Below, one piece after another: positions 6,066-58,584 of a stretch of DNA of 63,606 bases (its first letter is position 1; each line of letters begins with the position of its first letter). Under the pieces are notes generated by a model. That model was not told the DNA's origin and searched no databases. It worked only from the letters and a program-made list of their open reading frames with translations. The translations under genes were made by a program, and so were the position numbers. Source of the DNA: Deltaproteobacteria bacterium (GTDB lineage Bacteria > Desulfobacterota > Desulfomonilia > Desulfomonilales > Desulfomonilaceae). Location of the stretch: contig VGSG01000014.1 in NCBI GenBank assembly GCA_016875095.1, positions 1 to 63,606 of the forward strand, given 5' to 3'.

Positions 6066-9000
6066 TCATTTGTTCCCAGCCGCCCGTCTTCGACCCCCAG
6101 CAGTTCTTCTTGCAACTCTCCGCGGGTTTCCCTTCACGTGCTTTCCTTCGCTCGTGACGTCTGAGGTTCCTCGGTGGGCTGGAGCGATCACCCCAGCTTG
6201 GAGCGATGTCTTCCACATTGCCTGCGCTGCGGAAGTGTCCACAGCGAATGGAGCGTAGCCCCGCGCGTCGCCCAGCGCTTCCTTTAAGTACAGGCCTGTG
6301 TACGATCCCGGATTTTGAGCGATCTCTTCCGGCGAGCCCGTGGCGATCACTCGGCCTCCTTCGTCTCCTCCTTCAGGCCCCAGGTCTATAATATGATCGG
6401 CCACCTTGATGACATCCAGGTTGTGCTCGATTACCACCACGGTATTACCCTGGTCTACGAGGCTCCGGAGCACCTCCAGGAGCTGGCGTATGTCCGCGAA
6501 GTGGAGCCCTGTGGTCGGCTCGTCGAGTATGTAGAGCGTCCTCCCCGTGCTGCGCTTGGAAAGCTCCCGGGAAAGCTTGATCCGCTGCGCTTCGCCTCCG
6601 GAAAGAGTGGTTGCAGGCTGCCCCAGCTTGATGTACCCCAAACCGACCCGTTGGAGCGTCCGCAGCTTGTTTGCTACAGAAGGGACATTTTCCATGAATT
6701 CAGCCGCCTGGTTCACGGTCATGTCCAGGATGTCCGCTATTGTCTTTCCCTTGTATCGAATGTCCAGCGTCTCACGGTTGTATCGCTTTCCGTGACACAC
6801 ATCGCACTTTACATACACGTCAGGGAGGAAGTGCATCTCAATCTTGATGATGCCGTCGCCGGAACATGCCTCACATCGACCTCCCTTCACGTTGAAGCTG
6901 TATCGTCCCGGCTTGTATCCGCGCATTCGAGATTCAGGAAGACCGGCAAACAGATCTCGGATGAATGTGAAGACCTGCGTGTACGTCGCGGGATTGGAGC
7001 GCGGGGTGCGGCCGATTGGGCTCTGGTCAATGTCAATGACCTTGTCGATGAATCCAACGCCGTCAATCTGGTCGAACTCCGCCGCCCTCGCTCGACCGCC
7101 GTACAGGCGCTGAGCAAGAGCGCTCAGAAGCGTATCGACGATCAGGCTGCTCTTGCCCGATCCGGACACCCCTGTGACACAGGTGAATACCCCCAGGGGA
7201 ATGGCCACATCAATTCCTTTGAGATTGTTCGCTCGCGCCCCTCGTATGACAAGCTTCTTCTTACCGGGCTTGCGGCGTTTCTCAGGCGCCGGGATATGCT
7301 CTTTCCCTGACAGGAACGCCCCTGTAAGCGATTCCTTCGATCGGAGCAATTCCGAAGGAGCGCCTTGGAAAACGACCTCTCCTCCCATGCGCCCGGCCCC
7401 AGGTCCCATGTCTATGACGTGATCCGCGCTGAGGATCGTTTCCGGGTCGTGTTCCACCACCAGGACCGTGTTCCCTTGGTCCCTGAGATCCTTCAAAGTC
7501 GCCAGAAGCCTCTGATTGTCTCTCTGATGCAGTCCGATGCTCGGCTCATCGAGGATATAGAGCACGCCAACCAGGGAAGATCCCACCTGCGTGGCGAGAC
7601 GTATCCGCTGGGACTCACCGCCGGAGAGGGTGGCGGAGGCCCGGTCAAGGGTGAGGTAGTCCAAGCCCACTTTTTCCAAGAAACCGAGACGGTCGCCGAT
7701 CTCCTTGATCACCCGGCGGCCGATCTCCAGCCTTCGCTCGTCCAAGCGAAGCTCTTGCATGAATCGAGACGCGTCCCGCACCGACATCGCCGTCAGTTCG
7801 TGGATCGGCAGGTCCCCCACCAGCACGTGACGAGCCTCACGTTTGAGCCGCGCTCCGCCGCAAGAGGGGCACGGGATTGCGCTCATGAAACGTCCCAGCT
7901 CGTCGTTGACCTCTTCTTGCTCGGGGTTCCGATACCGTCTTTCCAGATTGGGAATGATCCCTTCAAAAGGCTTGCGAAAATAGTGCCTTCTGCCGTGCCG
8001 TTCAAAATAGAAATGAACCTCCTCAGAACCGGAACCGTACAGGAGGGCCTGCTGAACCCGCTCGGGCAGGTCCCGAAAAGGAGTGTCCACGTCAAACCCA
8101 TAATGATTCGTGAGGGCATCAATCATCTGGTCCAGAAAGACGGAATTGCGGTTGCCCCAGGGAGCGAGCGCTCCTTCGCTTATTGACAGATCCGGGTTAG
8201 GCACTATCAGATCGGGATCGAAGCGCACCTGGGCCCCAAGGCCCCCGCAGGTCTCGCACGCTCCGAACGGGTTGTTGAACGAGAAGAGCCGCGGCGCAAT
8301 TTCGCCGAACGATATGCCATGCTCCGGACATGCAAACTTTTCGCTGAATAGGAGGACCTGACCATCCTGAACTTCCGCCATCGCAGTTCCGTCCCCCATA
8401 CGCACCGCTGTTTCCATGGAATCCGCGAGCCGCTTCTCTAGGCCGGATTTCACCACAAGCCTGTCAACCACAACCTGGATAGTGTGCTTCTTGTTCTTGT
8501 CCAAGGGGATCTCTTCGGATAGATCCCGCATCTCGCCGTCGATCTTCACCCGGACAAATCCGTCTCTGGCCAGGCGATGAAGCTCTTTCTGATACTCACC
8601 CTTACGCCCCATCACGATGGGCGCCATGAGCACAATGCGCGTGCCTTCAGGAAGCTCCATCACCTGGTCAACCATCTGCTGGATAGTCATGGAGCTGATC
8701 GGTTTGCCGCATTCCCAGCAATGGGGAATGCCGACCCGCGCGTACAGGAGCCGCAGATAATCGTAAATTTCCGTGACGGTCCCGACGGTGGAACGAGGGT
8801 TCTTTGAGGTGGTCTTCTGCTCGATGCTGATGGCCGGCGAAAGTCCTTCGATCAGGTCCACATCCGGCTTTTCCATCATCTCCAGGAACTGCCGAGCGTA
8901 TGCGGAGAGCGACTCCACATACCGACGCTGCCCCTCCGCGTAAATAGTGTCGAACGCAAGGCTCGACTTTCCCGATCCGGAGAGGCCCGTGATCACCGCC

Positions 9001-11097: not shown

Positions 11098-12108
11098 CTA
11101 TTTCCTGAACAGATTCGCGATACCGGTTATCAAGTCGGCAAGGTCTACGGCCACGTTGGTCGAGCCTGCGTCATCAGAGAGCAGCAAGCCGCCTCCTGAT
11201 TCGTATCTCATCCTCTCTCGCCGGAGCTTCTGTTGGAGTTCCTCGTCCTTTTCGATTTCCCTCTCAGCTTCCCGCGCTTTTCGCAGGCCGCCCCGCGCCA
11301 TGAAGTCCATGATCTTCTCCATCTCGCCGGCATCGAACCAGATGCCATGAGGCCGACACACATCAACGATCACGCCGGACACGCGAACGAAGTTCTTGCG
11401 ATTCATGATGGTCCGGCAGACCGGGCAACGCAGGTACTGGACCTTTGCCTCCAGGACGCTTTCGCTTTGCTTCGATCCGCCGAGGGCCTCAACTACCCTC
11501 GTGGACGCGTCCTGCATCATCTCGAAGGTCTGGTGGGGGATGAAAAGGCCGCCGCACGAACCGCACGCGACCACCTTAAAGTCCCCGATGTTCTTCTCGC
11601 GCATGGGCAAATCGCAGCGGGGGCACCGATGGCTTGCCAGAGCCGCTCCTTCTGCCTGCGGAGGCTGGATGGGCCGCGCACACACCGCGCAGAACCTGCT
11701 CTCCGCCGGGATCCTCTGGTAGCAGTGTGGACAGTGCGAGGTCTTGCCTTTGAGTGAAAAATCCAGGTGGGCTCGGCAGTATTCGCAACGTTCAAACCCA
11801 CGCTTCACCGTGGCGCCACACGACGGGCAATGAAGAACCAGACCCGTGTCAAGGTCTACCGCGACCTTCGTATCGGCCGGTGACGCGTCCGTCTTCTGCT
11901 CTCCGAAACGAACCCTGACGTTCTCTTTCCGTCGAGCGATCGTCTCCGCGGTGAGCTTGCCATCCTGCCTGAGCAGGCCCACGACGCGGACGAGCCGGGA
12001 ATGATCCAGGCCGTACGTTGCCTTGAGCTCCTCTTCGGGTGTTCCACTCTCAAAATCCTTGAGGAACGCTGCTGCATTAACTCTGATCTTCTTACGCTCC
12101 GAGTCCAC
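11098..12108 (-). CDS. Multi-zinc-ribbon protein with two TFIIB-type zinc fingers
   Basis: About 336 residues from GTG at 12108, chosen because GAGGAG lies eight bases upstream; an ATG at 12147 would add 13 unlikely residues. The N-terminal 80 residues look helical (FLKDFESGTPEEELKATYG), like a small HTH or oligomerisation region. Four Cys pairs then form double zinc ribbons (CPSCGATVKRGFERCEYC; CPHCYQRIPAESRFCAVC). Two zf-TFIIB-like modules follow: CPRCDLPM..., whose second half is CGSCGGLF, and CPVCRTIM...VCRPHGIWFDAGE. The C-terminus is a charged helix. Probably cytoplasmic and protein- or nucleic-acid-binding. Operon with the DUF362 gene. Confidence 0.75.
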   Translation of the reverse strand: MDSERKKIRVNAAAFLKDFESGTPEEELKATYGLDHSRLVRVVGLLRQDGKLTAETIARRKENVRVRFGEQKTDASPADTKVAVDLDTGLVLHCPSCGATVKRGFERCEYCRAHLDFSLKGKTSHCPHCYQRIPAESRFCAVCARPIQPPQAEGAALASHRCPRCDLPMREKNIGDFKVVACGSCGGLFIPHQTFEMMQDASTRVVEALGGSKQSESVLEAKVQYLRCPVCRTIMNRKNFVRVSGVIVDVCRPHGIWFDAGEMEKIMDFMARGGLRKAREAEREIEKDEELQQKLRRERMRYESGGGLLLSDDAGSTNVAVDLADLITGIANLFRK

Positions 12109-12182
12109 GGCAGGTCTCCTCGCCCGTGTTGCGTGCGCAATTATCATACCGGCCTAGCGGCTACACTTCAAGAGGTGGGGCC

Positions 12183-12211
12183 TTGACAACCCCGCAGTGG
12201 TGAGGTTAAAG
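12183..12211 (+). promoter_or_regulatory. Probable tRNA promoter
   Basis: A perfect TTGACA (12183-12188) stands 37 bases before the tRNA. The -10 region (GTTAAA, 12205-12210) is a weak match at 16-bp spacing. Confidence 0.5.
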
Positions 12212-12224
12212 TGCCGTCTTGACC

Positions 12225-12300
12225 GGGCCGTTAGCTCAATTGGTAGAGCAACTGACTCTTAATCAGTAGGTTCGGGGTTCGATCCCCTGACGGCCCACCA
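12225..12300 (+). tRNA. tRNA-Lys (anticodon CTT), CCA encoded
   Basis: 76 bases that fold as a complete cloverleaf. Acceptor stem GGGCCGT pairs with ACGGCCC. The D-arm contains AGCTCAATTGGTAGAGC, the anticodon stem ACTGA/TCAGT encloses loop CTCTTAA (anticodon CTT, reading AAG), and the T-arm contains GGTTCGATCC. The 3' CCA is encoded at 12298-12300. It stands alone, with its own promoter and terminator. Confidence 0.98.
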
Positions 12301-12317
12301 GAAGGAACTCCGTGATG

Positions 12318-12357
12318 CCGCCTGGCTAGCCTGATGCGACGAGGCGGATATTTTTTT
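12318..12357 (+). terminator. Rho-independent terminator after tRNA-Lys
   Basis: CCGCCT (12318-12323) pairs with AGGCGG (12342-12347). The loop contains a GGC-TA-GCC mini-hairpin, and seven T residues follow at 12351-12357. The remaining bases up to 12623 hold nothing I can identify. Confidence 0.6.
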
Positions 12358-12623
12358 CTCGCCAAAAGCGTTACGCCGGATTTGTGACAATCCTCCGTGC
12401 AGACCGCATTGGCAGCGATAATGAGTTGCATGTAATGCCAATGCGCTGTTAGATGACTGAAATGGTCATTGCGGCGGCCTGGGATCTCCTAAACGAAGGT
12501 CCGACGGCCTTGCGTCGTCCGAAGAGAAGGAGATCCCCGGTTCGCCGCCCACCGGTAACTTGTTTGATCGCGCATTGGTACAAGAAAAACGCCTGCTTCC
12601 GTGCGCTCAATCCTGTGTCAGAC

Positions 12624-13691
12624 TCAACCCGATGCGTGAAATCCTTCTTCCGCCCTTCTCAAATCCGTGATGTCCCGGCGCCTGAACAGCGTGGTCCCGC
12701 CCTTGATGGATACCCGTTTCACATTGATCAACAACACGTGCTCGGCGCCGGCCTTGTCCGTGATAGTGCGCTCAATGTTCGGGATTTCCTCCCGGCGGCT
12801 GAATTCGGAGCGATCGAACAAATCAGGGCCGAGGAGCCGGCTCACCGTGCCGAACGATCCCACCTCTTCCTTGGAATAGCCGAAGATCACATGAACATTG
12901 GGACATATGTACGTGAACGCATCGTTGTCGTCGGTGATCACAACCGTATCGGATATGCTGGACAGGGTAATACGGTGCAGTTCTTCCGACTCACGGAGCG
13001 CTTCTTCCGCGCGCTTGAGGTCGGTGATGTCGTCCACGACGATGCGACAACGGGTGAAATATCCGTTGGCATCCCTTACCGCCACGCTGTCGAGCCTCGC
13101 GGGGAAAGAGTCGTCGGCTCGCTCCAATTGCATTTCGCAGGTCTGCTTCGTCCGTGTGGCGAATACTCGCTCTATATGCTCGTAGTAGGCATTATACGAG
13201 CGCTTGGAGACACAACAGGAGAACAGCGTGCCTATAAGGCCTTCTCGTGATCGTCCCAGTAGATGACCTGCCGTTGTGTTCGCCTCCAGAATCCTTGATT
13301 CCGCGTTGACCGTGAAATAGCCTACCGGAGCGGAATCATACAGTCCGGAATACCTGTCCCTTGATTGTTCGAGCTGTTCCTGGACCCGCTTGAGTTCGTC
13401 GTTCCGCATCTTGGCTTCGATCTGGGCAACTTGCAGCTCCCGGATCAGTCGCGCGGCATTCTCCTGGGACAATTGGGAAATGTCTCCAACGCTGAGCGCC
13501 CTGAGCTGCACGGCCCGCTCGGACCACCGCTGGAAATCCAACACCTTTCCGGCGGAGGTTTCCCGTTCCAGCCATCCGAGTGCGCTGGTGCAACCCTGTA
13601 TGACCTTCTGGAGCGCCTCCTCCAAATCGGCCACCCGGCGCCTCATCCCGGTCAACTGCTTGATGAGCTGCTCTGTAGTCTGGTCGGTCAT
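12624..13691 (-). CDS. Double-PAS sensor protein lacking an output domain
   Basis: 355 residues. An N-terminal helical region (1-110) with coiled-coil character precedes two PAS domains: about 112-230, closing with RIVVDDITDLKRAEEALRES, and about 235-345, closing with RRRDITDLRRAEEGF. The protein stops ten residues later, exactly where such proteins normally continue into a histidine kinase or GGDEF domain. Reading the other frames downstream (12301-12620, minus strand) shows no H-box or ATPase motif, so the output is absent rather than frameshifted. It may act as a stand-alone sensory partner, or be a truncated gene. Two cysteines (SCCVSKRS) lie in the first PAS domain. Confidence 0.8.
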   Translation of the reverse strand: MTDQTTEQLIKQLTGMRRRVADLEEALQKVIQGCTSALGWLERETSAGKVLDFQRWSERAVQLRALSVGDISQLSQENAARLIRELQVAQIEAKMRNDELKRVQEQLEQSRDRYSGLYDSAPVGYFTVNAESRILEANTTAGHLLGRSREGLIGTLFSCCVSKRSYNAYYEHIERVFATRTKQTCEMQLERADDSFPARLDSVAVRDANGYFTRCRIVVDDITDLKRAEEALRESEELHRITLSSISDTVVITDDNDAFTYICPNVHVIFGYSKEEVGSFGTVSRLLGPDLFDRSEFSRREEIPNIERTITDKAGAEHVLLINVKRVSIKGGTTLFRRRDITDLRRAEEGFHASG

Positions 13692-14799
13692 GGTGACGCC
13701 TGCCCGGTGTGTGATCGATGAAGATGCAAAGCGCCGCGAACGCGTGGACGCTTCCCTTAGGTCACCAAGAGATCTCTCAACTCATACGAAGAAAAAGACT
13801 CTTCCCTTTCTGTTCCTGAGCGTACGTCACCGCACGCCCCCCGGTCAATGATGATATTCGCTATTGTCCCTCGATCAGACATGGTTCGGTATCTTCAGAG
13901 GCAAGTGAAGGGCCACTCTTCAGCAATCAATCATGGTGAAACGCCTTAGTCGCCTGAGCCGACTATACAACCACGCCTTGAAAATGGACCTGGCGGGCAT
14001 GTCCCGTCAATAAGGATCGACGAGAAATCGTAGAGGAGCAATTCATTACGCCCATACGAGGGCGTGATGAAACACGCCCCTACAGTCAAGTCCGATCCGT
14101 TGTCTCTGCGGTGCCTTTGGCTGAAGCAAGCTGCGAAAGGGTGGATGAAATGCGAGTGTGTGTAGAATTCCTGGACCAAGGACGTAATCGAGGCCACCAT
14201 TCCCACCGCCGTACAAACGAAGATCTTCACAAGACTTGCCGACAATGCGCCGAGCCCCACCGGTCGTGATTTTGCGGCGAGACCCCAGGCTTCCCCGCCC
14301 ATCTTGGGAGGAGGGAGGGGCCCCAGCCGTTCCGCTCTCATCCCCTGTATTCGTTGCCCTGATTGGCCGCCTAATCTCAGTCCAAATCATACTGAATGCT
14401 TACCGTCGGCGAAAAGAAAACGATAAATTGGACAACAGCGAGAAAACGCGCTTGACCAACGAGACAAGACTAAAGTACAGTTGTTAAGGGGAAAATGCCT
14501 CTTTCATGTACGTTGAGGACGACCTTCTCTCCACGACGTTTCATCCACGCCAAGGCATGAACCATTCTAGGAGCCAACAATCATCTACGGCTCAATCGGA
14601 AGCGCAACGACCAAGAAGAGCGGCAATAGAACGACATCATTCAGGCTATACGACGGTGGAACAATCTGACTGAACCGCGGAATGGGTGACATCGAGCGCC
14701 CTGGGAGCGACGCGGAACGCCATCACCCGACCCGTCATGAGGCCGACCAAGCCCAAGAGGGGGGGCCTAGCGACTCGGGCTGTAAAGAAAGGGAGGGCC
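13692..14799. other. Intergenic 1.1 kb with no convincing gene
   Basis: Open frames here have no family features and poor starts. One palindrome is visible, GGGCGTG-ATGAAA-CACGCCC at 14060-14079, of the kind that recurs as a short intergenic repeat. The strong GGGAGGG ribosome site at 14788-14797 belongs to the cytochrome gene. The region may be decayed sequence. Confidence 0.5.
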
Positions 14800-36334: not shown

Positions 36335-38092
36335 CTACACGGCGGATTCTATTTGTGGGTTCTCAAATTCGATCGACGCGGACGTCCCATTATTTCCGCT
36401 GATATGAAATTCGCCTCCAAGTTGCTCCACGAAGATGCGCACCAGCCGGAGCCCCACAGTATCGGGGTCTGTCACGTCTATGTGTTGGGGCAGCCCTATA
36501 CCGTTGTCCCTCACTTTCAACTCAATTCGGTCGTTACCCAAAGCTCGAAAAGATATATCAATTCGGCCTTTTCCATCATTGGGGAACGCGTGCTTCAGGG
36601 AGTTGGAAACAAGCTCCGTCATAATGAGTCCTAGTGAAATTGCGGAATCGGTATTGAGTGTCAGGTCGTCCAGATCCGTGCTCACCTCTATTCCCGTTCC
36701 TATGGATTCATATGTGGCCTGAATATGCCGCACCACTGAATTGAGATAATCTCGGGCGTTGAGTTCGGAGAGGTTGCGGGACTGGTAGAGCTTTTCGTAA
36801 ACCGTGGCCATAGACCTGATGCGGTTTTCAGATTCCTGAAACATCTCAGCGTGTTGGTCGTTGTCCAGAGATCGTTTTTGCACTCTGAGCAGGCTGCAAA
36901 TGACTTGTAGATTGTTCTTGACGCGGTGGTGTATTTCGCGCAGCAATATTTCCTTTTCCTGAAGGGAGGCTGCCAATTGCCTTTGAGCGGATTTTAGCTC
37001 CGAAACATCGACCCCCACCCCGCGAACGCCTACAACTTTGCCTTTTCGGGTAATAGGATTTGCATAGAGGACGACGGGGATGCTCGATCCGTCACCTCTC
37101 GTGATCTTGTATTCTGCCCCGACCAGGCTCTTTCCCTCGAAGACCTCTTCAAATTCTCGTTGCGCCCGCTCCCAGTCCTCCGGAGAACAGACTTCGGCAG
37201 GGGCCAATCCCTTGGCAAGGTCATTCGACGTGCGGCCCATCATTTCGAGACCGGCTCGATTGACGAAGGCAAAATTGCCCTCTAAATCCAGTTCAAACGC
37301 GAGCTGGGGCAGCAGTTCCGCAAGTTCTCGAAAACGAGCCTCGCTTTCAACCAGCCCTTGCTGCGCTTTCCTCCGTTCTTCAATTTGCGATATGAGCTCT
37401 TTGTTGAGCTGATCTGATTGCTTCTGCTGCTCCAGAACGGACTTGAGGAGTTCGGTTTTTTCGAATCCCAACTTCAGTGAATTTTCGTTGACCGCATGCA
37501 TGTACCTCCCGGTGAGGACAAGGACCGTTCCAAACGCCAGCATTATGGTTCCAATGATCACGTGCAAATAGTCGAGTTCGTATAAGCATCGGAGGGCAAT
37601 GGGAAGGATTTCCGCTATGACAGTAGGCAGATTACATGATTTCAAAGGCGCGTACACAACCGCGGCCGCGGCGGAGAGGCCCGCGAGGAAGAGCGCGAGA
37701 ATGAACTGGTGTAGAATCGAATTCGCGGGAAAGAGGAATACACCAGCCGAGCCCCAGACAAGCCCGCTGGCAACCGTTACCCATACAAAGCGCGGGCCCC
37801 AAGGAATCGCTTTTTCCCCGGAAGGTGACACTCGACGAAACTGCCATACAAGCAGGTTTCGTATCACTTGCAAAACGAAATATGCCGCCAGCCAAACGAG
37901 GAGCTGCCAATGGGGCACGGTGCGCCACAGAACGGCCATTAAGAGCAGGGCGCTCAACTGAGCCGCGATCAGCCCCGGCACTGACTGAGAATAAACCTGC
38001 CGCACTTGTGCAGCGTACAACTCAGCGGCCTGAGCATCGGTCGTGCGCTCGCCCGGGCCCGGCTTTCGGTCCGACTGCGATTTCATCTGCAA
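36335..38092 (-). CDS. Membrane sensor histidine kinase (HisKA_2 type)
   Basis: 585 residues. Six hydrophobic helices between about 38 and 195 form a membrane sensor. A coiled coil (205-250), a PAS domain (about 252-368, ending GVDVSELKSAQRQL) and a HisKA_2 phosphoacceptor region LREIHHRVKNNLQVICSLL (His 388/389) follow. The HATPase domain has the N-box MTELVSNSLKHAF and G-box KVRDNGIGLP. HisKA_2 kinases often serve general stress or light responses. No response regulator adjoins it, so it is an orphan; the receiver-LpxC fusion at 53161 is one receiver without an obvious cognate kinase in this window. Confidence 0.9.
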   Translation of the reverse strand: MQMKSQSDRKPGPGERTTDAQAAELYAAQVRQVYSQSVPGLIAAQLSALLLMAVLWRTVPHWQLLVWLAAYFVLQVIRNLLVWQFRRVSPSGEKAIPWGPRFVWVTVASGLVWGSAGVFLFPANSILHQFILALFLAGLSAAAAVVYAPLKSCNLPTVIAEILPIALRCLYELDYLHVIIGTIMLAFGTVLVLTGRYMHAVNENSLKLGFEKTELLKSVLEQQKQSDQLNKELISQIEERRKAQQGLVESEARFRELAELLPQLAFELDLEGNFAFVNRAGLEMMGRTSNDLAKGLAPAEVCSPEDWERAQREFEEVFEGKSLVGAEYKITRGDGSSIPVVLYANPITRKGKVVGVRGVGVDVSELKSAQRQLAASLQEKEILLREIHHRVKNNLQVICSLLRVQKRSLDNDQHAEMFQESENRIRSMATVYEKLYQSRNLSELNARDYLNSVVRHIQATYESIGTGIEVSTDLDDLTLNTDSAISLGLIMTELVSNSLKHAFPNDGKGRIDISFRALGNDRIELKVRDNGIGLPQHIDVTDPDTVGLRLVRIFVEQLGGEFHISGNNGTSASIEFENPQIESAV

Positions 38093-51821: not shown

Positions 51822-52973
51822 ATGAAAAAGATAATCACCATAACCGCATCCCTCTTGGCGGTGGCCACTCTTTGCGGAGTGGCGAACGCCGCGGGCATGC
51901 AGCATCCGGCTGGGCCGCAACCTGCGCAGACCCTGGCCGCGGCTCCCATTGTAAGCGCACAGAGCCCTGTGGGAGCCAACGCTAATGCAGTCGCGCCGTC
52001 TGCCGTTCCCGCGGCGGCGCAACCGGCGCCCTCCCCTGGCGCTCAGGTTCAGCAGCCAACACAGGTCATCCAGGCCACCGAGAACCCCGCGAGCGCTTCC
52101 CCGGGCCCCTCCAGCAAGATGGGACCGGGATGCCCACCCTGCCCGCCCTGTATTGCTCAGAACGCCACCGGACCGGTCTCAGCGGATAGCGGGGTCCGGT
52201 CCGCGTCCGTATCTACCCAGACGCCGGCCGCGCCGACACAGCCCGAGCCTCGGCCGGTTGTTATTCAATCAGCTCCAGCGGACATCGCAACCGGAGTAAA
52301 CTCACAAACCACCATTGCGCCCGCTCAGCGGCAAGTCCAATCCGACCGGACAAGCGCCAATTGTGGGCCGGGAGCGGTGGCTCAGGGCATCAACTGCGGT
52401 CCATCCAAGTCAACCGGTCAAGAGCAGGCCGCTCCGACCGGCCCCAAGGCTGAGTCCAATGTGACGGCCGCGCCCGGCATGGGTGGGGCTCAAAGCTCCG
52501 ATGGCGCCAAATCGCAGATCGCATCGGCTCACGTACCTCCTCCCGGACAAGAGGATTGCGCGTGCTGCGACCGCGAACCCGTGAAAAGCGCCCAGCAGGA
52601 AAAAGCCGTATCCCCGGTGACTTCTGCGCCGGCGCAAGCGACTCCTCCCGCAGCCTCTCCCATTACCGCAAAGCCTGCGCCCAACGCAGGTCTTAAGCCT
52701 CCGGCTCCCGCTCCGGCGACCCAAGTGGAGCCTGTGGCCCAACGGTCCGGTGATGAAGCCAACGCGAGAATGACTCTGAGACAAGGCGTCCCAGCCTCTA
52801 ATCCGCCCGGCCACACCAACAGCGGTCAAGCGGTTCAGGCTCAGCCGTCTCAAGGCGCCGTGTCCGCGGGCCAGCCAGCGGGCGGGTGGAAGCAAGTCCC
52901 TGCAGCCCAAGGGGGGCCGGTTCAGGCGCAGCAGCCGGCTGCACAGACGCAGACAGCCCCTTACGCGAGATAG
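51822..52973 (+). CDS. Secreted Pro/Ala/Gln-rich protein with Cys clusters
   Basis: 383 residues, AAGGAG before the ATG. The Sec signal peptide ends GVANA (residue 23). The rest is low-complexity Pro/Ala/Gln/Ser, clearly unstructured. Unusual are the cysteines: CPPCPPC, a repeated NCGP unit (ANCGPG and INCGPS) and EDCACCDRE, which could bind metal or form disulfides. No hydrophobic segment after the signal. It resembles the secreted protein at 44038 in composition and promoter, not in sequence. Probably an envelope or surface protein. Confidence 0.72.
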   Translation: MKKIITITASLLAVATLCGVANAAGMQHPAGPQPAQTLAAAPIVSAQSPVGANANAVAPSAVPAAAQPAPSPGAQVQQPTQVIQATENPASASPGPSSKMGPGCPPCPPCIAQNATGPVSADSGVRSASVSTQTPAAPTQPEPRPVVIQSAPADIATGVNSQTTIAPAQRQVQSDRTSANCGPGAVAQGINCGPSKSTGQEQAAPTGPKAESNVTAAPGMGGAQSSDGAKSQIASAHVPPPGQEDCACCDREPVKSAQQEKAVSPVTSAPAQATPPAASPITAKPAPNAGLKPPAPAPATQVEPVAQRSGDEANARMTLRQGVPASNPPGHTNSGQAVQAQPSQGAVSAGQPAGGWKQVPAAQGGPVQAQQPAAQTQTAPYAR

Positions 52974-53076: not shown

Positions 53077-53104
53077 GGAGGGGCACGCATCTGCGTGCCC
53101 CTCC
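53077..53104. terminator. Perfect palindrome after the secreted protein gene
   Basis: GGAGGGGCACGCA and TGCGTGCCCCTCC pair over 13 bases with a two-base gap. There is no T-run, so it could be a REP-like unit as much as a terminator. Confidence 0.55.
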
Positions 53105-53160: not shown

Positions 53161-55254
53161 ATGAACAAAGCGCGAGTTCTCATAGTCGACGACCAGCAGG
53201 AGATTCTGCTGTCACTCGGAGGGGTCCTCCAGGATGAGGGCCACGAGGTGATCACCGCCCGTGACGGCCAGGAGGCTCTCCACCTGGTTCAGAGCGATTC
53301 ACCCGATGTGGTGTTCCTTGACATCTGGATACCCGGAATTGATGGATTGCAGACGCTCAAGGCCATCAAACGCCTGGATCCGCAATGCGCCGTGATCATG
53401 ATGAGCGGTCACGGAACCATCGAGACCGCGGTAAAGGCCATCAAGTTAGGCGCCGCGGACTACCTGGAGAAGCCGCTCAATCTGGAGGACGTGCTCCACC
53501 TGGTGCAGAAGGCGCTGGACAACCGGGTTTCGGATCTTAAGGAGTGCGCTGTCTCCGGTTTGGACCCGAGCGCCTTGATCGGATCCTCTGAAGCGGCCCA
53601 ACGTTTGAGACGAGCGCTGGAGAACGCGGCGCGGGAGAATGGTTCCGTCTGGCTTGCAGGTGAAAAGGGGACCGGCAAGGAGTTCGCCGCCAGACTGATC
53701 TATAATCTGCAAGACAGGGATCGGGACAGCCTGATCAAGGTTCGTTGTTCAGATCTCAACGAAGAGAACTTCGGCGAGATCATGCTGGGGAGGGGCGCAG
53801 ACCCGCAGCGGCAGCGGCCGGGTAAGATCAATCAGGCGCTCGGCGGGGCCTTATTGCTGATCGGGATAGACAGACTTCCGGCGCCGCTTTGGTCCAGCCT
53901 GGCTAAGGCTCTGATGGAGACGCTCACCCCGCAACGGTCCGCGAGCAAACACCCCGGCTTCCCAACCCGGATCTTTGTGACTTCTTGCCTCGACCCCCAG
54001 ACACTGGCGCGGGATGACGGGGTTCCATCGGAGTTGGTGGAGGCGCTGGCCGACCGCGTGATTCGACTTCCTCCTCTCTCGGAACGACCCGACGACATCC
54101 CGCTCTACGTCAAACACTTCCTTGCCGAGGCGGCCGAAGAATTCGACAGAGACATCTATGACATGGATGAGGAAGCCATCAACCGCCTCCTCGCCTATCC
54201 GTGGCCCGGCAATGTGAAAGAGCTCAAAATCCTGATCGAGCACATGGTCATGACAGCCCCCGGACCTGCAATCACCGTGAGCGATCTTCTGATACCGGGC
54301 GTGGAGAGGTCGGTTACGGAAAGCCGCGCGGCCGGCCAGGTTCACAGAGATCCCGCTCCGGGGACAGGTCACGCGCACAGACCCGTCAGCCTTTCTCGGA
54401 TCGTTCCAGGGAGGACTGTGCGCCATCAGAAGACCCTGCGGACCAGCGCGGTGACGTACGGTCAAGGATTGCACTCGGGGACAAAGACCGGTCTCACCTT
54501 GTCGCCTCTTCCCGTGGGGAGCGGCATTCTATTCGGGCAGATCACGTCCGCGCAGAGCGTTCCGGCGGTGCTCACGAATGTGGAATCCACGGAGTTCTCC
54601 ACTTGCCTCCGAGCAAACGGCTCATCGGCGCGCACCATTGAGCACCTGATGGCTGTCTTTCATGTGTACGGCCTGACGAATGTGATGGTGAAGATCTCCG
54701 ACGAAGTGCCGATCATGGACGGTTCAGCGCTGGAATACTGCAACCTGGTCGAGAGCGCGAAGATAGCCAGCCAAGACGACGTGGTGGAAGAGATCCTCAT
54801 CGACGAACCCATCGAACTTCTATTGAACGAACAGAGCTCCAAAAGCCTCCGCGTTGAGCCGTGCGATTGCTTCGAGGTGGAATACTTCCTCGACTATCCG
54901 GCGCCAATCGGCAAGATGCGCATGGTTTACCGGTGCTCCGACCCCGAGGATTTCAAGAAGAACATTGCGCCGGCTCGAACGTTCGGTTTTGTCAAGGACA
55001 TGAGAATGATGGACGAAATGGGATTGGCCGGTGGAGGCAGGCTATCAAACGTGATCCTGCTCGACGAAGAGAAGGTGGTGAATCCGCCGCTCCGATTCCC
55101 CGACGAATTCGTGCGTCACAAGATACTGGACATCATTGGAGACTTCTATCTCTTAGGCCGCCCCATCCGAGGCAGGGTGATCGCCCGACAAACCGGCCAT
55201 TCGGACAATATTGCCATCCTGAAACTCATCAACGACAAGTATAAGATCCTCTGA
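53161..55254 (+). CDS. lpxC: Response-regulator receiver - degenerate sigma-54 AAA - LpxC deacetylase fusion
   Basis: 697 residues in one uninterrupted frame. 1-120: receiver domain with D10/D11, phosphoacceptor D54 (VFLDIWIPG), S82 and K104. 138-380: NtrC-type AAA module with a preserved Walker A (GEKGTGKE, 167-174) and PWPGNVKELK, but no GAFTGA loop and no acidic Walker B (LLLIGIDRLP), and no Fis HTH after it. 418-697: complete LpxC, UDP-3-O-acyl-GlcNAc deacetylase, the committed step of lipid A synthesis: zinc ligands H495, H653, D657, base E494 (TIEHL), EFVRHKILDIIGD and H680. All LpxC catalytic residues are kept while the AAA part cannot activate sigma-54. It implies phosphorylation-gated control of lipid A synthesis. 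No good ribosome site before ATG 53161. Confidence 0.93.
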   Translation: MNKARVLIVDDQQEILLSLGGVLQDEGHEVITARDGQEALHLVQSDSPDVVFLDIWIPGIDGLQTLKAIKRLDPQCAVIMMSGHGTIETAVKAIKLGAADYLEKPLNLEDVLHLVQKALDNRVSDLKECAVSGLDPSALIGSSEAAQRLRRALENAARENGSVWLAGEKGTGKEFAARLIYNLQDRDRDSLIKVRCSDLNEENFGEIMLGRGADPQRQRPGKINQALGGALLLIGIDRLPAPLWSSLAKALMETLTPQRSASKHPGFPTRIFVTSCLDPQTLARDDGVPSELVEALADRVIRLPPLSERPDDIPLYVKHFLAEAAEEFDRDIYDMDEEAINRLLAYPWPGNVKELKILIEHMVMTAPGPAITVSDLLIPGVERSVTESRAAGQVHRDPAPGTGHAHRPVSLSRIVPGRTVRHQKTLRTSAVTYGQGLHSGTKTGLTLSPLPVGSGILFGQITSAQSVPAVLTNVESTEFSTCLRANGSSARTIEHLMAVFHVYGLTNVMVKISDEVPIMDGSALEYCNLVESAKIASQDDVVEEILIDEPIELLLNEQSSKSLRVEPCDCFEVEYFLDYPAPIGKMRMVYRCSDPEDFKKNIAPARTFGFVKDMRMMDEMGLAGGGRLSNVILLDEEKVVNPPLRFPDEFVRHKILDIIGDFYLLGRPIRGRVIARQTGHSDNIAILKLINDKYKIL

Positions 55255-56019: not shown

Positions 56020-58584
56020 ATGGCGGAGCGCAAACTCGAAGACGAATTCAGAAGCCGGTTGACGCGACAGGACCACGTGCAGGCGCTCGAACAAAAGCTC
56101 CAATGGGAGCTGGAAAGCCGCTCGCTTGTCATCGGCATCCTGACGCTTCTCAACGAGCAACTGGTGGAGATAGATGTTGTCAGGAAGATCTTCACCTTGG
56201 TAAGAGAATTTGCCGGCTTTGAAGCCGTCGGCATTCGAATGCGTCAAGATGGAGACTTTCCGTACCTTTTCACAGACGGGCTTTCCGATGATTTCATCGA
56301 GGCGGAAAACTCGCTCTGCGCCAGAACGAAATACGGCGAAATCGTTTGCGATTCCGAGGGCCATCCGGTTCTGGAGTGCATATGCGGGCAAATAATCCGG
56401 GATGAGACCGACCCGTCCCTGCCCTTCTTCACCGCCTCAGGGAGTTTCTGGACTAACAGCCGGTCTAAACTTCTGGCCTCGCGTCACGGGAGCCGGTTCG
56501 AACGCGGTGTCAGAAAGCGATTTAATTCTGCCGGGTACGAATCAGTGGCGCTCATTCCGCTGCGTTCAAGTCGTGAAGTTGTCGGCATCCTTCAATTCAA
56601 CGATAAGCGTGAGGATTGCTTCTCGCCGGAAATGGTGCTGTTTTTCGAAGCCATAGGAGGCATCATAGGGAGTGTTTTCGCGCGGTTGCGAACGGAACAG
56701 AGCCTGCGCCAGGCAAGAGACGAGTTGGAAGAGCGTGTGCAAGTGCGAACGGCCGCACTGTCGGCACTGAACTGCGATCTTGAGAAGGAAATAGAGGAGC
56801 GCGAGGCGGCCGAGCAAGACCTCTTGCTGACGCAACATCGGCTCCAGTTGGCGATGGAAGCTTCTAGCATGACGACATGGGACTGGAATGTGGACACAGA
56901 CCGCGTTTATTTCGATCACCGTTGGAGCGAAATGATGGGTGTTTCATCCGAGCAAACCGATGCCAATTTCGACATGTGGCTTAATCGGCTCCACCGTGAT
57001 GACAAGCTGAATGTCCTCAAAGCCCTAAAGGATCACCTCGAACACCCCTCTCAGCATTTTGACGCTGAATACCGGGCCCGAACCGCGACGGGGGATTACA
57101 GATGGCTCCTGGATCGCGGCAAGGTTGTGGAATGTGACGAGGATGGTAAGGCATTGAGAATGGCAGGGATTTGTCTCGATATTACCGAGCGGAAACGGAT
57201 GGAAGAGGAAGTGCATGAGTCGGCCGAACGGTTTCGGGCTATTTTTGAGAGCGCCAAGGATTGTATTTTTGTTAAGAATTCTTCGCTGCAATACACCGAG
57301 GTGAATCCGGCATTCACTAAAATGATCGATTTGCGCGAATGGGACATAGTCGGCAAGACGGACGCTGATCTATATGACACCGATTCTGCCGAAATTCTCC
57401 AAGACGTCGATCATCGAGTCCTGTCCGGGGAATCAGTCGAACAAGAGCATACGAGGGTTATAGCAAAACTTCGTCGGACATTCCTCGACACCAAGGTTCC
57501 TATGAGGAACAACCGCGGGGACATCGTCGGCATTGTGGGAATCAGCATGGAGATTACCGATCGAAAACGTACTCAATCCGATCCTCCCGTCGGCAAGTCC
57601 GATTCTGCGTCTCCCGCGATGCGCTCGACACTGAGCGCAGCCCGTTTGGCTGCCGAAACGGATGCCATCGTTTTGTTAATGGGGGAGAGCGGAGCCGGAA
57701 AGGACCACATAGCTCGCTACATCCACGATCACTCCAAACGCGCAAATGGCCCGTTCTTTTCCATCAATTGCGCGGCTGTCTCTCCGGAATTGGCGGAATC
57801 AGAGCTTTTCGGATATGAATCAGGCGCCTTTACCGGGTCCAAAGGGCCAAAGCGAGGACTGCTGGAGTTGGCTGAGGGCGGAACAATATTGCTCAATGAG
57901 ATCGGTGAGCTGTCCTTACCGCTTCAGGCCAAGCTACTCACTTTTCTCGATACTCGCCAATTTACCCGCGTGGGCGGCGTGAAACTTTTCAAGGTAAACG
58001 CCAGGCTCATGGCGGCAACCAACCGAAATCTCGAAAAAGAGGTGAAGCTCAATCGTTTCCGCGACGATCTCTTCTACAGGTTGAACGTCTTTATGATAGA
58101 AGTCCCTCCTCTGAGACGTAGAACCGAGGACATGCCTCATCTCGTCCCCAGCCTACTACAGGAGCTTTCTTCCAAGCTGGGATTGGAATCTGTGCCGCAC
58201 ATGGAGCATCCGGTGCTGAAAGCTCTGGCAGAATACCAGTGGCCTGGAAACGTGAGAGAGCTTCGCAACGTGTTGGAGCGCGCCCTGATCCTGTGCGACA
58301 AGAAGCGCATCACCATGAACGAGCTTGCCATAAACAACAGGGCCAGAATGAGGGATACAGGCCACACCTGGTCTGTCACTATAGGTTTTCCCGAGAATGA
58401 AACGATAAACGATGTGAGCATGAACGTGAAGCGCGCCCTCGTCGTGGAAGCCCTTCGCCGAACTGGAGGAAGCCGGAAACGAGCGGCAGACCTCCTCGGA
58501 ATCAGCCCGGATTCGCTGAAACACTACATGCAGATTTTTGACCTCTACACGATCCATCCTGTCCCATCCCGGCAAACTCTATGA
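56020..58584 (+). CDS. Sigma-54-dependent activator with GAF-PAS-PAS sensory module
   Basis: 854 residues, AGAGGTG before the ATG. A GAF-like domain (about 40-225) holds four cysteines (C100, C110, C120, C122, the last pair in LECICGQII) in a family pattern that ends PFFTASGSFWTNS. A coiled coil, PAS 1 (275-392) and PAS 2 (400-515) follow. AAA domain: Walker A GESGAGKD (555-562), GAFTGS loop (602-607), Walker B TILLNEIGEL with Asn 626 instead of Asp. Fis-type HTH at the end (GGSRKRAADLLGISPDSLKH). Cytoplasmic. The Cys-rich GAF domain suggests redox or metal sensing. Its likely targets are its own promoter and the redox operon at 59120, both with sigma-54 sites. Confidence 0.93.
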   Translation: MAERKLEDEFRSRLTRQDHVQALEQKLQWELESRSLVIGILTLLNEQLVEIDVVRKIFTLVREFAGFEAVGIRMRQDGDFPYLFTDGLSDDFIEAENSLCARTKYGEIVCDSEGHPVLECICGQIIRDETDPSLPFFTASGSFWTNSRSKLLASRHGSRFERGVRKRFNSAGYESVALIPLRSSREVVGILQFNDKREDCFSPEMVLFFEAIGGIIGSVFARLRTEQSLRQARDELEERVQVRTAALSALNCDLEKEIEEREAAEQDLLLTQHRLQLAMEASSMTTWDWNVDTDRVYFDHRWSEMMGVSSEQTDANFDMWLNRLHRDDKLNVLKALKDHLEHPSQHFDAEYRARTATGDYRWLLDRGKVVECDEDGKALRMAGICLDITERKRMEEEVHESAERFRAIFESAKDCIFVKNSSLQYTEVNPAFTKMIDLREWDIVGKTDADLYDTDSAEILQDVDHRVLSGESVEQEHTRVIAKLRRTFLDTKVPMRNNRGDIVGIVGISMEITDRKRTQSDPPVGKSDSASPAMRSTLSAARLAAETDAIVLLMGESGAGKDHIARYIHDHSKRANGPFFSINCAAVSPELAESELFGYESGAFTGSKGPKRGLLELAEGGTILLNEIGELSLPLQAKLLTFLDTRQFTRVGGVKLFKVNARLMAATNRNLEKEVKLNRFRDDLFYRLNVFMIEVPPLRRRTEDMPHLVPSLLQELSSKLGLESVPHMEHPVLKALAEYQWPGNVRELRNVLERALILCDKKRITMNELAINNRARMRDTGHTWSVTIGFPENETINDVSMNVKRALVVEALRRTGGSRKRAADLLGISPDSLKHYMQIFDLYTIHPVPSRQTL

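Follow-up and report, generated by a model that had tools for sequence, protein, structure and literature searches.

What a signal-receiver domain does on LpxC, the enzyme of the committed step in lipid A synthesis, and what might act on that domain, are the questions raised by a fusion gene, ntrX::lpxC, in a 63,606-nt stretch of DNA from a Desulfomonilaceae genome (the window). The gene is a single uninterrupted ORF of 697 aa (53161-55254, + strand, as are all the parts listed here) that encodes, by ORF and Pfam analysis, a receiver, a degenerate NtrX-type AAA+ part, a tether and LpxC. The receiver domain (aa 1-122; 53161-53526; Pfam and residue check) matches Response_reg at 6-115 (2e-31) and has DD at 10-11, the phospho-acceptor D54 (53320-53322), S82, K104 (53470-53472; residue check) and an NtrX-like helix alpha1, SLGGVLQDEG (53212-53241). 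The AAA+ core (aa ~138-306; 53572-54078; Pfam and AlphaFold2) matches Sigma54_activat at 139-254 (5e-15) and retains Walker A, GEKGTGKE (residues 167-174; 53659-53682); the acids of the Walker B region, GALLLIGIDRL (residues 229-239; 53845-53877), are replaced, and no GAFTGA loop was found in the AAA part. The AAA lid (aa ~307-378; 54079-54294; Pfam AAA_lid_14 at 308-376, 5e-20) contains the sensor II motif WPGNVKEL (54202-54225), with Lys for Arg. A disordered, unconserved tether (aa ~379-418; 54295-54414) occupies the place of the NtrX HTH; the Pfam search gave no HTH_8 match in the window protein, and no DNA-binding output was seen. The LpxC deacetylase domain (54415-55251; Pfam, TIGR00325 and Foldseek) matches Pfam LpxC at 423-690 (2e-78; PF03331, 264 bits vs a cut-off of 27), lies above the cut-off of the TIGR00325 LpxC equivalog (221 vs 187 bits) and has the zinc/catalytic residues E494/H495 (54640-54645), H653 (55117), D657 (55129) and H680 (55198). 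The LpxC-FabZ bifunctional profile NF009667 also matches this part, at 184 bits against a cut-off of 465. An earlier interpretation of the locus from its letters (the sequence-only reading) had described a complete receiver (D54, K104), an AAA part with Walker A and without GAFTGA, the Walker B acid or HTH, and an intact LpxC active site, all of which the motif check and Pfam bore out.

AlphaFold2, run on a 28-row alignment (mean pLDDT 81, pTM 0.60), predicts the receiver, AAA+ and LpxC as three folded units, with residues 379-416 disordered (pLDDT < 50). The best Foldseek matches of the fusion are Brucella abortus NtrX (5m7p, with ADP, and 5m7n, with ATP) and LpxC structures, the LpxC part aligning with those of Aquifex (1p42) and Pseudomonas (2ves) at TMt 0.84-0.93. 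The complete fold and all zinc/catalytic residues of these known LpxCs are present, and the fusion differs from them in adding an N-terminal receiver or receiver-AAA.

The source genome (202 contigs, rated 100% complete) gave one LpxC match only, the fusion. A second canonical lpxC and a frameshift or misassembly, two of the outcomes that the sequence-only reading had named as fatal to its proposal, were both ruled out, the former by this single match and the latter by an architecture common to 16 other genomes of the family. Within Desulfomonilaceae, 17/18 genomes have one LpxC match each, in a ~700-aa frame with no stops; in the 18th (G012, 86% complete) an LpxC match was not found. The nearest named records to the window fusion are from Desulfomonile/Desulfomonilaceae, and in a sister family of the same class every LpxC frame is 272-324 aa. 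LpxB was found in the source genome, and the lipid A pathway therefore exists there. The LpxC domain of the window is a functional-looking deacetylase, the activity of which we infer from its being the sole copy and from the presence of LpxB.

The regulator part has NtrX as its best NCBIfam profile (NF051870, 251 bits), below the equivalog cut-off of 600, and is therefore described as derived from NtrX and not filed as NtrX. NtrX is the best profile for relatives too (332 bits for L053; 124 bits for the receiver of the AAA-less L076), and Brucella NtrX heads the PDB sequence matches (E 2e-52). In a receiver tree of 126 columns, with weak deep forks and four rows that are mis-cut AAA fragments, a branch (96*) separates the fused receivers, together with unfused sister-family NtrX, from other NtrC-type regulators, which were the highest-scoring ones from the family's own genomes. 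The sister-family NtrX is intact and GAFTGA-bearing, with HTH_8. Searches of whole genomes with the NtrX profile did not single out NtrX, NtrC-type regulators being too numerous, and the receiver tree was more telling on this point; no other NtrX candidate was found among the top-scoring regulators checked in the source genome. At the level of sequence, these comparisons establish the NtrX kinship of the receiver, and NtrX as the chassis of the fusion. An NtrX-type receiver and AAA+ are shared with the NtrYX systems of Brucella (5m7n/5m7o/5m7p), Rhodobacter and Caulobacter, and NtrX of Caulobacter is also without GAFTGA (PMC10274813). However, NtrX has an HTH where the fusion has the LpxC enzyme, so that the link to lipid A is physical, not transcriptional; moreover, the AAA part is wholly lost in half of the fusion family, and ntrY is unlinked in Desulfomonilaceae.

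Far from being a one-off, the window fusion belongs to one branch of a large family of single origin, in which AAA-less receiver-LpxC proteins (~420 aa) are also found. LpxC frames of 420-490 or 730-770 aa are found in many other families across the phylum. Domain models made from family members, together with named genomes found in a collection scan, yielded 86 distinct fusions, 43 of them receiver-LpxC and 43 with an AAA part, the latter being the architecture that had been proposed as a genome-wide query. Two of the 43 AAA-bearing fusions have no receiver in the same frame, one through a contig end and the other through a frame change (L052). At the latter locus (6815-8983; genome G142) a 91-aa receiver ORF lies beside a 629-aa AAA-LpxC ORF in a different frame, either because the sequence contains an error or because the fusion has split naturally. 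The hosts are Desulfobacterota, Nitrospinota, Tectomicrobia/Entotheonella, Schekmanbacteria and MAGs labelled Nitrospirae or Proteobacteria; one genome (G418), the only such fused genome seen, has two receiver-LpxC genes (L077, L078) ~130 kb apart. Three members (L057-L059) with long N-termini (934-1354 aa) were considered as hybrid kinases and rejected, no extra Pfam domain being present, and these extensions resemble upstream DNA that happens to lack stops, or wrongly set starts.

In trees of the LpxC domain a single branch separates all fused proteins from the unfused ones (SH-aLRT 100 in a 109-row quick tree; 100/100 in a 65-row careful tree), and the fused/unfused state is one change in 100% of bootstrap trees of the careful tree. 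The fused LpxC domains are one clade, and the fusion arose once. The AAA part is gained or lost at least 6 times in the 109-row tree and at least 8 times in the 65-row tree. Since an AAA part is present in the NtrX parent, and loss of GAFTGA and the sensor II Arg-to-Lys change are common to all 43 fused AAA parts, the simplest reading would be one fusion with an NtrX-type protein and then repeated AAA loss. With at least 6-8 gains or losses, the AAA part is therefore not essential to a switch and is better seen as a module derived from NtrX that half of the fusion family can do without.

Residue conservation across the family separates what has been kept from what has gone. D54 is intact in 84/84 fused receivers, DD in 83/83 with data, S/T82 in 84/84 and K104 in 83/84, and the LpxC zinc/catalytic residues (H, H, D, E, H) are invariant in 166/166 LpxCs. 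Among the 43 fused AAA parts, the Walker A Gly and Lys positions are invariant in all, GAFTGA is missing from all, sensor II has Lys for Arg in all, and the Walker B DE pair is retained in one only, the least degenerate of them, from a Schekmanbacteria MAG (L120). Mean identity within Desulfomonilaceae is 83% for the receiver, 42% for the AAA core, 65% for the lid, 10% for the tether and 75% for LpxC; the corresponding median dN/dS values are 0.06, 0.27, 0.10, 0.84 and 0.09, of which the ranking alone is meaningful, synonymous sites being nearly saturated and usable pairs few. Judged by these patterns, the receiver is under no decay and the sigma-54 machinery is gone, while nucleotide binding by the AAA part has probably been kept. 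The description of the AAA domain as dead holds for sigma-54 activation, but Walker A is present in 43/43 and sensor II has changed from Arg to Lys in 43/43. The suggestion that a transcription-factor chassis was recycled in front of LpxC is supported: the LpxC looks functional and is the sole copy, and the receiver looks phosphorylatable and shows the highest conservation of any domain within the family (83% vs 75% for LpxC).

Gene context indicates a candidate kinase. An NtrY-type kinase (NtrY_N, HAMP, PAS, HisKA, HATPase_c) is encoded directly upstream of the fusion, on the same strand, in 25/79 analysed loci, and neighbour clustering places ntrY upstream in both architectures and in several phyla. 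The order in the sister family is lpxC-ntrY-ntrX, as separate genes, and in unfused relatives lpxC-ntrY-ntrX or lpxC-DUF4390-ntrY-ntrX; in 12/24 other unfused genomes checked, ntrY follows lpxC on the same strand at a distance of no more than 4 kb. Where a receiver is attached to LpxC, ntrY occurs without a separate NtrX, and the fusion therefore appears to take the place of NtrX as partner of NtrY. This is strong comparative evidence, not proof, for the pairing.

In the source genome ntrY is on a different contig from the fusion (G000:C48 ~11730-13976, - strand, match 12651-13940; equivalent to L231 8731-10977), and the two genes are unlinked in the family as well. It is a single ortholog (53% identity, E 3e-142) with HisKA and HATPase_c matched, recovered by searching with an NtrY protein and an N-terminal alignment made for the purpose, after PF19312 (NtrY_N) had missed it. 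It adjoins tsaC-like (tRNA-modification-type) and pth-like (peptidyl-tRNA hydrolase-like) genes. No regulator was found beside ntrY in the source genome or in the other Desulfomonilaceae loci examined, where the setting is the same, nor beside unlinked ntrY in 19 further fused genomes of other families; NtrY was not detected in two fused genomes, G390 and G272 (68% complete). With ntrY and the fusion unlinked, the pairing in the source genome rests on orthology and the absence of another NtrX candidate.

Some of these operons include a further gene. In L102 and L096 the order is lpxC, a third gene, ntrY, ntrX; in L102 the third gene (7327-7908, between lpxC and ntrY of an unfused operon) encodes a DUF4390 (PlrP-like) protein, and a similar gene lies at 1665-2291 of L119, upstream of ntrY-ntrX::lpxC in a fused operon. 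PlrP, a DUF4390 protein, is a third NtrYX component in Bordetella (PMC13001219). Desulfobacterota and Nitrospinota, too, may have the periplasmic third component of NtrYX.

We consider it likely that the window protein is an NtrX-descended response regulator with LpxC in place of the DNA-binding output, its cognate kinase most probably being the membrane sensor NtrY. On balance, and with some reserve, we also favour a widespread single-origin response-regulator class with LpxC output, in which NtrY would control lipid A synthesis post-translationally and transcriptional NtrYX-lpxC control would have been merged into one protein. NtrY would phosphorylate D54 of the receiver, and phosphorylation would set LpxC output post-translationally, through catalysis, location or stability. 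Coupling would probably run via changed self-association, docking of the receiver on the enzyme or capture by membrane NtrY, with regulated turnover as a further candidate, and the retained P-loop suggests continued nucleotide binding by the AAA part, a property of Brucella NtrX. Deletion of ntrYX in Rhodobacter sphaeroides raises lpxC mRNA 8.8-fold and doubles LPS (PMC7240162), and lpxC is repressed by NtrYX in Caulobacter (review PMC12444477); by analogy with Alphaproteobacteria one could guess that phosphorylation might restrain lipid A synthesis here.

The join between regulator and enzyme bears on which aspect of LpxC output would be set. LpxC is tied to the receiver, or receiver-AAA, by a disordered and unconserved tether, and a rigid helix relay is therefore improbable; 10% identity in this segment is not what finely tuned allosteric coupling would predict. 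A tether predicted to be disordered in both architectures fits recruitment or degradation better, and it is possible, though we doubt it, that the receiver governs the amount or place of LpxC and not its catalysis, by exposing the enzyme to FtsH/Lon-type proteolysis or hiding it from this, or by docking on membrane NtrY and so bringing LpxC to where lipid A is made. NtrY is a membrane kinase, and enterobacterial LpxC is under proteolytic control (PMC12444477). However, no adaptor or degron was identified for such a route, and the LapB zinc-ribbon model (PF18073) did not discriminate, since it also matches numerous genomes that lack lipid A, as well as ~460-aa frames that are probably RadA.

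Control of the receiver by NtrY has also to be weighed against a different phosphodonor, either another kinase or a small molecule such as acetyl phosphate, which we regard as unlikely. The separation of ntrY from the fusion in the source genome and the many kinases encoded there (several HAMP/kinase-domain matches) would allow it, but NtrY is linked in ~25 fused loci and is without a regulator in the unlinked loci examined. The sequence-only reading had offered the HisKA_2 kinase at 36335 as a possible input; this candidate finds no support: it is of HisKA_2/HWE type and encoded 15 kb from the fusion on the opposite strand, no HisKA_2 kinase gene is among the recurrent neighbours of the fusion, and the comparative evidence points instead to NtrY, encoded elsewhere in the genome.

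It is quite improbable that the receiver and AAA part are passive relics on a constitutive LpxC, the fusion being a by-product of gene rearrangement. An AAA core that has lost its motor motifs, with 42% identity in the family, and repeated AAA gain or loss are as such an account would have them, but practically every fused receiver, in several phyla, has kept its phosphorylation-site residues, and the receiver is better conserved than the enzyme in the family, where a relic would have decayed as the tether did. That the signal runs in reverse, with LpxC reporting substrate or lipid A precursor level to the receiver or NtrY, can be largely discounted: lpxC is linked to ntrYX in the unfused state too, but the fusion has no other output domain (no HTH) and a signal could return only to NtrY.

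Response regulators with enzymatic output in which a receiver is fused directly to the enzyme include the CheB, GGDEF and HD-GYP types; unlike these, the fusion has an essential outer-membrane biosynthetic enzyme as its output. LpxC-FabZ (NF009667) is also an LpxC fusion, but its partner is a biosynthetic dehydratase and not a signalling domain. The receiver-AAA ancestry is common to the NtrC-type sigma-54 activators (bEBPs), of which DVU2934, like the fusion a regulator dedicated to lpxC, is an example; in contrast to bEBPs, the window fusion has no GAFTGA, Walker B pair or HTH, making the usual activation of sigma-54 promoters impossible. In Desulfovibrio vulgaris lpxC is the sole target of DVU2934, and in Syntrophobacter fumaroxidans it immediately precedes the orthologous operon (PMC3333781). 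Known control of LpxC is by FtsH/LapB proteolysis or transcription, and receiver fusions are not mentioned in a 2025 review of lipid A regulation (PMC12444477). Full-text search found no publication on an LpxC-receiver fusion, subscription journals and domain-architecture databases, which may show the architecture, lying outside its reach. The fusion represents a true and conserved response-regulator output class, apparently one not described before. Should LpxC output depend on phosphorylation, two-component signalling would control outer-membrane synthesis directly, and there would be an independent reason to view NtrYX as an envelope and LPS system. The gene context of the fusion clade points to NtrY as the sensor, at times accompanied by a PlrP-like DUF4390 protein, and the AAA-less members of ~420 aa make the switch idea easy to probe in vitro.

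The fusion is flanked in the window by two further genes on the same strand. Just upstream, 51822-52973 (+) encodes a 383-aa Pro/Ala/Gln-rich, export-signal-like protein, for which Pfam gives no match; in 8 other loci of the family a short export-signal-like protein recurs as the neighbour upstream. A hairpin, GGGGCACGCA...TGCGTGCCCC, lies at ~53080-53103, between this gene and the fusion. Directly downstream, 56020-58584 (+) encodes a GAF-PAS-PAS-sigma-54 AAA-HTH_8 regulator without a receiver, in which Walker B reads LLNE, not the usual DE.
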